Source: Polytrichum commune
Lineage: Eukaryota; Streptophyta; Polytrichopsida; Polytrichales; Polytrichaceae
Direction of reading: 5' to 3'
Assembly (NCBI GenBank): GCA_950295325.1
Contig: OX485807.1
Location: 28,059,666 to 28,123,665 of the forward strand
DNA: 64,000 nt
The position numbers and the translations under genes are program-made. Every line of letters starts with the position of its first letter. Within the stretch, counting starts at the first letter, position 1. The notes beneath the pieces are model-generated. The model saw only the letters and a list, made by a program, of their open reading frames with translations. It was not told where the DNA came from and searched no databases. This document shows, in pieces, positions 1 through 3,599 of the stretch.

Positions 1-2544
1 GAAAGACAACACAATCATTTTTCAAACATCATTAACGCTTACTTCACCACGGAACAACACCGAGACACAAGATACGTCACACCATCCACAATAATTCCAC
101 TAGCACATATCTCTATTAGTGAATGCAACCCAGAAAATGACATTGAAACAAATTCTGATACTATCCAAACACAATTCGATGTCGCCCACATATACGAAGA
201 CAATGGAAGGCATCTCATCACCATCCCGAAAGCTAGACTAACATGGCTATAGAAACAATACCAATTGGCAAAAAATACCACACATGGTCTAGAACCATCT
301 ACCCAATCATTCGAAACTGAAATTGTTTGGCTATACCAAAGATACAAATACCGTATCCCAAAAAACGACCCACTCAAAAGAGCCCAATATACAATACCAA
401 CTCAAATACTGGATCTACTAATTACAACATTCAATATTACCCACTCATACTTTTCATCCCCAGTTACATGTCCTACACAATTCACCCAATTCTACTCACC
501 CTTCTCACGAGACATAATATTCGGATCCTTAGGAAAATTGTTTGACTATAAATGGCAAGGAATTGGATACGCACATCCTCACACATCAACAGACCTACAA
601 CAAGCCATTCACTGGGCACGCATGGCGGCCCAAAATGACCCTTACACAATCATTATAATTATATCCCCAGACACTGACTGGTACCAAAACTCAAACCCAC
701 ACATAGGCCCATTCCCAGACACACATGTCATTGCCCATTTTGCTGCTGACACAATCACATACGAAGAACCAACAATACCCCCCGAATTCAATACTACAAG
801 GAAAGAACCATCTACCATGCAAATATTCTGTATCCATCACCAAAATAATAACATAGGTACCTACGAACAAATGAAGCTAATACACGACACAACAAATAAC
901 CTCCAAATATTACAAAGCCACACTCAAATTGCACCACCCACCCCTCCGAACATCACCGTTAACCCTAGTAAAAAATGAGCTAAAACAAACTACCCAAACA
1001 TATCCCTATACAATAATAACCCCACCCCACAACTCCCAAACTACCAAACCAACTTACCACTAAAATTCCACCCCCAATTTAGCTACTACATAGATGGATC
1101 CTTTATAAAACCCAAAGAAATTGCCCCTAGAATATGGAGAAGAGAAAGAGCTAGATACGGTATCTATAGCCCCAAAGGCTTAAATATCGCCAAAAGACTC
1201 CATGGGCATCAAAATATACTACGTGCAGAAATGATGGCTATACACAAAACACTAAGAATCATCAATACACAATTCCCTAATGAACCCGCATTTATATTCA
1301 CAGACAGTCTAAACGTACTATATCTACTCAACAAACAAATTAAACACCCCACTCTCCATAATAATCACCCAGACCAAACCACACTCAACTCCATGGTAAA
1401 AATCCTCCAAGACCGTACACAGCCTATCACATTATATAAAGTCAGAGCACACGTCAACATTGACGGTAATGAAAAAGCGGATAAACTAGCAAAAGACGGG
1501 TTAGAATTAGAACACAGAATCGCCATACACCCATACGAACATGCCCACGCCACCCCATACTATTATCAAAAGGACGTCTGGGCCTCAATGGAAGAAGTCC
1601 CAGACAAAGGCCCAGTAAGATTCTTAGAAGAACAAATTAAAAAATATGACAGGGAAACCAATATAGCAGTCATGGCCACACAAACCCCCAACACGTGTAA
1701 ATGGACAGAAAATATAGACATTGACAAAGAACTGTCCAACGAATTCTGGACAAATCCCTTAATCATAGACAAACAAAAATCATGCCTTATTAAATTCCGC
1801 ACAGGAACATACATGGGTAATGCTAGAAAACAAATGTTTTTCGGTCACCAGAGGTACCCCTCTATCACGTGTCCCATATGCAATTCAAACGATCCAGACA
1901 CTTGGCTACATGTACTGCTGAAATGTAACCAACAACATATACACTCACTACGAGTTAAAAGACATAACAAAGCAGTTGGAGAAATTAGGAAGCTCCTAAT
2001 CTCGTCCGAAAAATCCCAATGTTTTACTCTCATGAATGCCGGTACCTTCAATAATAATCCCCAAGAAAATATTGTCCCCAATTGGCTACTCCCCTGTGCA
2101 TGTAACACACAAAGATGTCATTGCAATGCAAGGTTTCGCCCTGACATACTATGCGTCAAAGGATTACCATATCAAAATGACCCTCCCATCGACGTTGGCC
2201 CTAACCTCACCATACAATTTATCGAATTCACATATTGTAACGACAGATTTTCCCCAGAAACTATAGAAGCAAAACACAACAAATACAAACCACTGATTGA
2301 CAGTATCGCTTCTAGAGGATGGAAAATCGAACCACTTATTGTCCTCACAGCTGGGGCCCGAGCTACGGCCCACATCCCATCCATGAAAATACTAGAAGAA
2401 AATCTCAAAATACCCATGGTTACCATCAAAAATACCTTTAAAAACATTAATACTATTGCAATACAATATGCCATGTCCATCCTCCTACATAAGAGGAGAC
2501 TTGAAAACCACCAACCGCTCCCCCAAAACTTAAACCCTCCATAA
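1..2544 (+). pseudogene. retrotransposon polyprotein fragment: methyltransferase-like, RNase H, CCHC and endonuclease-like regions
   Basis: Frame 1 is open apart from TAG at 250-252 and TGA at 976-978; the longest clean part is 1231-2544 (437 aa from ATG), but RNase H begins before it. Seen: RNase H residues in order YIDGS (about 1087), RAEMMA (1222), FTDSLN (1297) and GNEKADKLAK (1465), giving the expected D-E-D-D set. Then a C-x2-C-x9-H-x4-C knuckle (CPIC near 1870), a Cys-rich CACNTQRCHC stretch (2098), RFRPDILC (2131), IEFTYCNDR (2221) and KHNKYKPLID (2272). The last three fit the PD-(D/E)xK-like endonuclease of RLE-type LINEs, with Thr where Lys is usual (ExT). Upstream, 500-790 (FGSLGKLFDYKWQGIGYAHP, then TDWYQN) resembles phage/DIRS-type N6-adenine methyltransferase folds, but AHP replaces the usual NPP, so this is a weak inference. 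Confidence 0.65.
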
Positions 2545-2590
2545 AACCCAAAAACTTATATAATATCTTATATAATATCTAGTATCTACT
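1..2590 (+). mobile_element. 3' part of a non-LTR (LINE-like) retrotransposon
   Basis: One reading frame (frame 1) runs from the window edge to a stop at 2542-2544. It carries an RNase H domain, a CCHC-type zinc motif and a C-terminal region resembling the restriction-like endonuclease of non-LTR elements. The reverse transcriptase would lie upstream, outside the window. The short tail after the stop has a 12-bp motif (TTATATAATATC) twice in tandem near 2555-2580, which may mark the 3' end. The coding strand is strikingly rich in A and C and poor in G, unlike the host genes further right. The copy is interrupted by two in-frame stops and is probably dead. Confidence 0.75.
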
Positions 2591-2599
2591 TACAGCTCA

Positions 2600-2765
2600 G
2601 AATGAGGGACTGGTGCCGGTTGGTTGGTACAAATTTCCTGCCTTTTATTCACTTACAGCACCAAGTCATGTGTTACATTTTAGACAATCATACGAACTCA
2701 ACTGGAATCGAACCCGGAACATCTTAACTCAAACATCCTCCCACAACCAACCGAGGAATCATGAC
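2600..2765 (-). mobile_element. probable tRNA-derived SINE fragment, reverse orientation
   Basis: On the minus strand the sequence GTTCCGGGTTCGATTCC (complement of about 2703-2719) contains a perfect polymerase III B box (GGTTCGATTCC). A possible A box lies about 45 bases before it. The segment is bracketed by an inverted pair, CCAAGTCATG near 2664 and CATGACTTGG near 2759. No tRNA cloverleaf can be drawn, so this is a SINE relic rather than a tRNA gene. Confidence 0.45.
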
Positions 2766-2865
2766 TTGGCGTTCACTCTCATTACAAAAACACTAATTAT
2801 CCTTAAAAGCCATGCACCTCCGTGGGCCATAATCGGCCCATGTTTTTTGTTTTTCGGTTACTGTT

Positions 2866-3020
2866 TCTCGGTTACTATAGTGTCCATCCTCGAAAGAGGA
2901 GAGTAGTTTTGTCCCAGCTTCCCCATGTCCTGTGGGCATCGGGTTGTTGGCATTACGAACGGACACTCTATTCACGCCGGCCCCTAAAAGGGACCGGAGT
3001 TTCTATCTATCTATCTACAC
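2866..3020 (+). mobile_element. 5'-truncated SINE tail
   Basis: This ~150-bp segment (from ACTATAGTGTCCATCCTCGA to the TATC repeats) is closely similar to the 3' part of the complete SINE at 3171-3541, including the GGCATTACGAAC block and the terminal (CTAT)n. It lacks the polymerase III promoter half, as expected for a 5'-truncated insertion. I see no target duplication. Confidence 0.6.
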
Positions 3021-3170
3021 CTCAAATGAATAAAGCAAAACCGGAAGATATCAACATGTAACCGGCCGGATTCAAAATCACTAGGATCTTGACCTTTTCC
3101 TTTTCTCTCCTGCTTAAGTATGCACTTTGAACCGTAGCCGTTGGTGTGCACTTAGTTGGTAGGTGCCTAC

Positions 3171-3541
3171 AACACCACATGCCTTGGCTTGGTGGTTAGG
3201 GCTCATAACCCCCAATGAGGAGGTTGTGGGTTCTATTCCCCATGCCGGTGTGGTGCTCACCACCTTAGTCCACCCAACTATGGTGGGGGGTCCTTGGACC
3301 TTGTTGTATGGGTACCTCAAAGCCCTTTGGGGGATTACCATGTCCGGTATCTTCAAGGCACTAGTGGCTAGCTAGAAACTTGTATAGTGTGTCACTATAG
3401 TGTCCATCCTCGAAAGGGGAGAGTAGTATTTGTCACAATGTCCCCTTGTCCAGTGGGCATCGGGTCATTGGCATTACGAACAGACACTTTATTCACGCCA
3501 GCCCCTTGCTTGAAAGGGGTTGGAGTTTCTATCTATCTATC
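3171..3541 (+). mobile_element. full-length tRNA-derived SINE with 11-bp target duplication
   Basis: The element starts with a polymerase III-like head: an A box-like TGGCTTGGTGG near 3183 and a B box-like GGTTCTATTCC near 3229. It ends in a (CTAT)n tail. It is flanked by a perfect 11-bp direct repeat, TAGGTGCCTAC, at 3160-3170 and 3542-3552, the signature of target-primed insertion. Length is 371 bp. The 3' half matches the truncated copy at 2866-3020. The perfect duplication suggests a fairly recent insertion. It sits in the left part of a decayed DNA transposon. Confidence 0.85.
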
Positions 3542-3599
3542 TAGGTGCCTACTTTACTCATATCGTTTTCTAGACCCTTTGATTCGATGAATCACAACG

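Follow-up and report, generated by a model that had tools for sequence, protein, structure and literature searches.

A candidate Dualen/RandI-like LINE family with a PCIF1-type domain in ORF2 of Polytrichum commune

A stretch of 64,000 nucleotides from Polytrichum commune (assembly GCA_950295325.1, contig OX485807.1, positions 28,059,666 to 28,123,665, forward strand), referred to here as the window, begins inside the reading frame of a retroelement. The locus raises the question of what kind of element would unite a methyltransferase-like domain, RNase H, a zinc knuckle and a restriction-like endonuclease (RLE) on one polypeptide, and what the methyltransferase-like domain contributes to it. 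In our preferred reading, which we hold with a probability of roughly 60% for all of its parts jointly, the window contains a degenerate copy of a Dualen/RandI-like family whose ORF2 protein would carry a PCIF1-derived, non-methylating and RNA-binding core and would act by nicking target DNA and priming reverse transcription there (TPRT).

Layout of the window copy

Frame 1 is one coding region that extends from base 1 of the window to the TAA at 2542–2544 and is broken by two premature stops, TAG at 250–252 and TGA at 976–978. Both stop positions are read through in other genomic copies. Position 2544 is the end of the stop codon of the open reading frame, the element ends near 3017, and its start lies upstream of the window. 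The features are as follows.

1..2544, plus strand: 3′ part of ORF2 of the LINE, its 5′ part lying upstream of the window
280..663, plus strand: PCIF1-type methyltransferase core (PF12237), from Pfam, alignment and a PDB profile; the NPPF position lies within AHPHT
1078..1503, plus strand: RNase H (PF00075); Pfam stretch 1141..1503, start extended by alignment with the intact copy
1870..1926, plus strand: CCHC zinc knuckle, CX2CX9HX4C, from aligned copies
2131..2400 (end approximate), plus strand: putative restriction-like endonuclease, from aligned copies and the motif description in an excerpt of PMC5678591
2131..2148, 2224..2226 and 2272..2286, plus strand: RLE motifs RFRPDI, acidic E and KX2KY, respectively
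2545..2868, plus strand: 3′ UTR of the LINE
2869..3002, plus strand: structured 3′ tail common to LINE and SINE, from SINE similarity and consensus structure
3003..3017, plus strand: (CTAT)n 3′ terminal repeat of the LINE
3160..3170, plus strand: target-site duplication of the SINE, left copy, TAGGTGCCTAC
3171..3541, plus strand: non-autonomous SINE with the LINE tail and a (CTAT)n end
3542..3552, plus strand: target-site duplication of the SINE, right copy

The C-terminal order of RNase H, CCHC knuckle and RLE on one polypeptide, as proposed in the preliminary description of this locus, was borne out. RNase H of the window copy matches PF00075 with an E value of 6.8e-12, and its D-E-D-H-D residues are found in YIDGS, RAE, FTDS, RAH and KAD. 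The cysteines and the histidine of the knuckle (C-x2-C-x9-H-x4-C) are identical in all six aligned copies, and the same six share the invariant RLE residues RF[K/R]PDI, E and KX2KY. As hallmarks of LINE RLEs, the excerpted text of PMC5678591 gives KX2KY carrying the catalytic lysine, a CX2-3CX7-8HX4C knuckle and GXW; the present element is off by one, with CX9H instead of CX7-8H and GW instead of GXW. Since a profile of the RLE region retrieved no R2 chain and no relevant match from the PDB, the assignment rests on motifs and position, and it is at this motif level that an RLE appears to be present. Single-sequence AlphaFold prediction of the region gave an unusable model (pLDDT 34.5).

Two further stretches of the window copy were considered. 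A match of positions 1–249 to a viral glycoprotein family (Pfam E value 0.0042, under the cut-off) was taken as compositional. Positions 2690–2770 in the 3′ UTR resemble by eye the B-box region of a tRNA on the minus strand, without support from Rfam.

Full-length copies, insertion and the SINE partner

A search of the genome (407.8 Mb in 64 contigs) recovered at least 83 copies of the C-terminal 521 residues with protein identities of 92–100%. Frames of 2625 codons are open in three of the 83 scored copies, and further frames of 2663, 2919 and 2924 codons were found among 150 scored family matches. In at least six copies the frame runs on without interruption for more than 2600 codons; copy counts and open-frame counts are both lower bounds. 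Because ORF2 frames are intact in these copies, the family appears to have been recently active. The genome also includes a contig of 146,561 bases with a complete plastid-type rbcL and, next to it, a frame that fits accD, in agreement with a streptophyte host, probably a land plant.

The intact ORF2 reads, in order, 2A, AP endonuclease (APE), reverse transcriptase (RT), PCIF1-type core, RNase H, CCHC knuckle and RLE. Five subfamilies, A to E, were distinguished on several contigs. This order is found in single frames of subfamilies A, B and C and, as far as the sequences were fetched, in frames of D and E whose interruptions lie within the RT region or upstream of it. In one intact ORF2, Pfam reported RVT_1 (2.3e-29), RNase_H (5e-13) and PCIF1_WW (5.3e-8), and the match to Exo_endo_phos (PF03372) had an E value of 8.8e-4, which is under the curated cut-off; the APE motifs WNASS, QET, GDFN and SDH are present in the alignment of subfamilies A, B and C. 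The 2A motif, which opens the conserved part of ORF2 and precedes the APE, is GDIEPNPGP in A and GDIETNPGP in B, both of which we take to fit the usual 2A pattern, and a degenerate GDIKPNPGP in C. ORF1, a frame of 747 codons that lies upstream, overlaps with the beginning of the ORF2 frame; Pfam gave no significant match for it.

With an AP endonuclease present in the full-length copies as well, the element is of the dual-endonuclease and not of the RLE-only type. Against the composite plan, the preliminary description had set the possibility that full-length copies follow an L1-type plan with an APE and a different C-terminus. The recovered copies do contain an APE, plus the 2A motif, but their C-terminus is the RNase H, CCHC and RLE arrangement already noted. 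Dualen/RandI, also named in the preliminary description, is indeed the nearest known plan. Dualen/RandI elements encode both an APE and a PD-(D/E)XK nuclease, and those of Chlamydomonas have short-repeat ends and SINEX partners, as stated in excerpts of PMC3636483, PMC4640811 and PMC3747384. With these elements of Chlamydomonas and other green algae, the present family shares APE, RLE and RNase H, the location of RNase H between RT and RLE, and the AP endonuclease upstream of the RT; the likeness extends to a short-repeat 3′ end other than poly(A) and, on the excerpted accounts, to SINEs with the same tail. It differs by its plant host and, on the same accounts of the algal elements, by the addition of a PCIF1-type domain that separates RT from RNase H. 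By architecture, the family is best described as Dualen/RandI-like.

R2 and other RLE-type LINEs have the same succession of CCHC and RPD...E...KX2KY, and R2 proteins were the best PDB matches of the RT profile (9e-32, as compared with 2.8e-20 for L1). In contrast to these LINEs, the element has an APE, RNase H, an upstream ORF1 frame and no apparent fixed target site, given four different flanks. Two ORFs, an APE and RNase H are shared with plant L1 LINEs, from which it differs by the presence of an RLE, the absence of a poly(A) end and an RNase H that matches PF00075.

Four of five long copies (three of subfamily A and one of B) lie between perfect direct repeats of 12, 12, 12 and 14 bp, and their flanks are unrelated to one another, although for two of the repeats a few end bases could be part of the (CTAT)n tail. 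The elements between these repeats are 12,490, 12,702, 11,965 and 13,473 bp long, i.e. this is a non-LTR retrotransposon family of 12–13.5 kb. Because 5′ regions vary among copies, the left repeat of two copies was located only when all of the retrieved upstream sequence (about 4 kb) was scanned; no direct repeat was found for the copy of subfamily C. The 3′ terminal repeat is (CTAT)n in A, B and C, whereas subfamily D ends with (CTT)n. Three A-type copies (L010, L061 and L062) are nearly alike in ORF2 and differ in the 5′ sequences that follow the target-site duplication; the 5′ region thus seems to be exchanged or fast-evolving.

Directly ahead of its (CTAT)n end, the LINE has about 135 bases that recur in a SINE, the LINE tail being 85% identical to window positions 3391–3541 over 151 bp. 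A consensus fold of eight LINE and SINE tails contains 34 pairs, seven of them with compensatory changes. The 40 scored SINE copies, including that of the window, are 96–100% identical, and the genome holds 2318 first-look candidates. Direct repeats of 10–14 bp flank the SINE in all six copies checked (11 bp in the window). Such a 3′ end, common to both partners and of conserved RNA structure, is the mark of a stringent-type LINE/SINE pair. Taken together, target-site duplications, the structured tail and its sharing with the SINE support TPRT with stringent 3′ recognition. A tRNA origin of the SINE head, prompted by box-like stretches seen by eye, was dropped after ARAGORN and Rfam returned nothing convincing.

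A PCIF1-type domain between reverse transcriptase and RNase H

The preliminary description had also proposed a methyltransferase-like domain before RNase H. Such a domain is present, but it is of the type of PCIF1, the animal mRNA-cap (m6Am) methyltransferase, with the catalytic motif lost, and the suggested Dam-like identity (PF05869) was abandoned. The window segment 253–975 matches PF12237 with an E value of 5.7e-13, which is over the cut-off; at E values up to 1, this was the only Pfam family reported for the segment, with no match to Dam/PF05869. The match of the intact ORF2 reaches 33.1 bits, 2 bits over the cut-off of 31.1. Despite its name, PCIF1_WW, we take PF12237 to be the family covering the PCIF1 methyltransferase core, and this fits the PDB alignment. 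A profile built from a 14-row alignment and compared with all PDB sequences at E values up to 1 gave two matches, both of them PCIF1 chains; their E values of 0.035 and 0.088 are weak taken alone and agree with the independent Pfam matches. No WW domain was among the five Pfam families reported at E values up to 1 for the ORF2 of 2625 residues.

Like PCIF1/CAPAM, the element has the methyltransferase core PF12237 with the FxSPxxC active-site loop and the FG[S/A]xG stretch, and columns aligned to the PCIF1 active-site loop and to FGSRG are among the most conserved. It differs by the lack of a Pfam WW domain, by its fusion into a LINE ORF2 and by the change of NPPF to HPH[N/T]. In PCIF1, the active-site loop starts at F479 and the catalytic loop spans N553 to C557, according to the excerpted part of PMC10544176. 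In the alignment with 6irv, NPPF falls on hPhn, so that asparagine and phenylalanine are both replaced. An [NDS]PP[FYW] motif is absent from all 57 aligned rows, which come from 55 sources with some overlap. AHPH is found in 50 of these rows, and the other seven have AHPP (two rows from one copy), AHLH, AHPY, GHPY, a fragment and LARP; in the 14-row alignment, A190, H191 and P192 are invariant. As the NPPF catalytic loop became HPH[N/T], we predict a retained fold that no longer carries out N6-adenine methylation. A single-sequence AlphaFold model of the region was unusable (pLDDT 35.8).

The domain has nevertheless been maintained. Between subfamilies A and C, for which dS is unsaturated, dN/dS according to Nei-Gojobori was 0.08 for the APE, 0.067 for the RT, 0.126 for the methyltransferase-like domain (bootstrap 0.07–0.21, dS 0.46), 0.049 for RNase H and 0.11 for the RLE. 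Against the more divergent subfamilies B, D and E, for which dS is near saturation or saturated, the methyltransferase-like domain gave 0.15, 0.21 and 0.17, and in the comparison of A with B it was similar to APE (0.17) and RNase H (0.15). With a dN/dS of 0.13–0.21, the methyltransferase-like domain is under purifying selection, which clearly maintains it, if somewhat less strictly than RT and RNase H in A versus C. The short segment at ORF2 residues 2086–2132, which adjoins the domain at residues 1780–2085, evolves fast (dN/dS 0.42–0.61). Identity to subfamily A ranges from 55 to 96% per named domain, the exceptions being the short segment after the methyltransferase-like domain (45–83%) and the 2A-linker of B (53%). 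With dN/dS well below 1 in every named domain for which it could be computed and 83 copies of 92–100% identity, the coding region is far beyond chance. A decayed relative of the LINE (L074:1-3319), 38% identical, has the methyltransferase-like part followed by RNase H; the same order thus extends to a much more divergent lineage. In this relative, a SINE is inserted between the two parts.

A host gene for PCIF1 was not recognised among 150 scored of 697 candidates (top score 55.6 bits); the 40 of these 150 matches that were fetched all represent the methyltransferase region of the element, and splitting into exons could hide a gene from this search. Relatives of the element or its methyltransferase region could not be confirmed in viral and prokaryotic contig collections or in phage records. 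As these collections cover viruses and prokaryotes, absence from them says little about plants. Among the literature matches listed, as excerpted, neither a PCIF1-type domain in a LINE nor its host range is described. That a LINE ORF2 can acquire and retain an RNA-related domain from elsewhere has a precedent, though with a different domain and in another host and clade, in the captured helicase domain of TRAS LINEs mentioned in an excerpt of PMC5563155.

Competing readings and a proposed mechanism

The PCIF1-type domain might still be an active methyltransferase with an unusual HPH site that methylates the capped element RNA, or DNA, and thereby stabilises it or hides it from silencing. The domain is conserved throughout, the substituted loop with its invariant A190, H191 and P192 and the FG[S/A]xG stretch included, and its dN/dS is low; both speak for this view, and a changed motif could still catalyse. 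Yet both the asparagine and the phenylalanine of NPPF are replaced, the canonical motif is absent from all 57 rows, and PCIF1 itself has reduced or no activity when NPPF is mutated, as reported in the excerpted parts of PMC6318281 and PMC10544176. We regard catalysis as distinctly unlikely. Alternatively, the domain, inherited from an ancestral capture, might have no nucleic-acid role and might separate RT from RNase H as a structural spacer or offer a platform for protein interactions. This would agree with the fast evolution of the adjoining segment and with the fact that sequence alone demonstrates no activity. In contrast, the columns corresponding to the PCIF1 active-site loop and to FGSRG are among the most conserved, which would be needless for a mere spacer; this explanation, too, seems rather improbable.

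Doubts could also concern the element as a whole. An ordinary plant L1 with fragments acquired by chance, or a chimeric assembly artefact, would account for the presence of APE and RNase H, as in plant L1. This is already contradicted by the results presented here and has hardly any probability left: five subfamilies, spread over several contigs and 55–96% identical in the named domains, show the same domain order, and even the decayed relative retains the succession of methyltransferase-like domain and RNase H. Likewise, four of the five long copies tested (three A, one B) are bounded by direct repeats, and the RT profile fits R2 better than L1.

For the Dualen/RandI-like element that we favour, the following course of retrotransposition can be envisaged. 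The ORF2 protein would bind the 3′ stem-loop of its own RNA, nick target DNA and prime reverse transcription at the nick, with APE and RLE probably dividing the two strand cuts and RNase H removing the template. SINE RNA would parasitise the ORF2 protein by means of the same 3′ stem-loop. The least certain steps concern the PCIF1 core, which may no longer methylate and may instead serve as an RNA-binding module; perhaps it binds the RNA of the element or its cap. Recognition of the capped 5′ end of the element RNA is plausible, and the protein would therefore favour full-length, self-encoded templates. More specifically, the captured core might be a non-catalytic reader of the element's own capped 5′ end, so that the protein would hold both ends of the RNA during TPRT, a proposal that we put forward tentatively and consider doubtful at present.

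If true, a cap-reading core would give cis-preference and insertion at full length a molecular basis. How a LINE selects its own full-length RNA is a long-standing question, for which a PCIF1 relative within ORF2 is a direct and mutable candidate. With intact copies of a dual-endonuclease LINE, accompanied by an abundant SINE, it becomes possible to test in a plant how APE and RLE share the work. For the PCIF1 field, the family offers a natural set of homologues that have lost the motif and are under selection.
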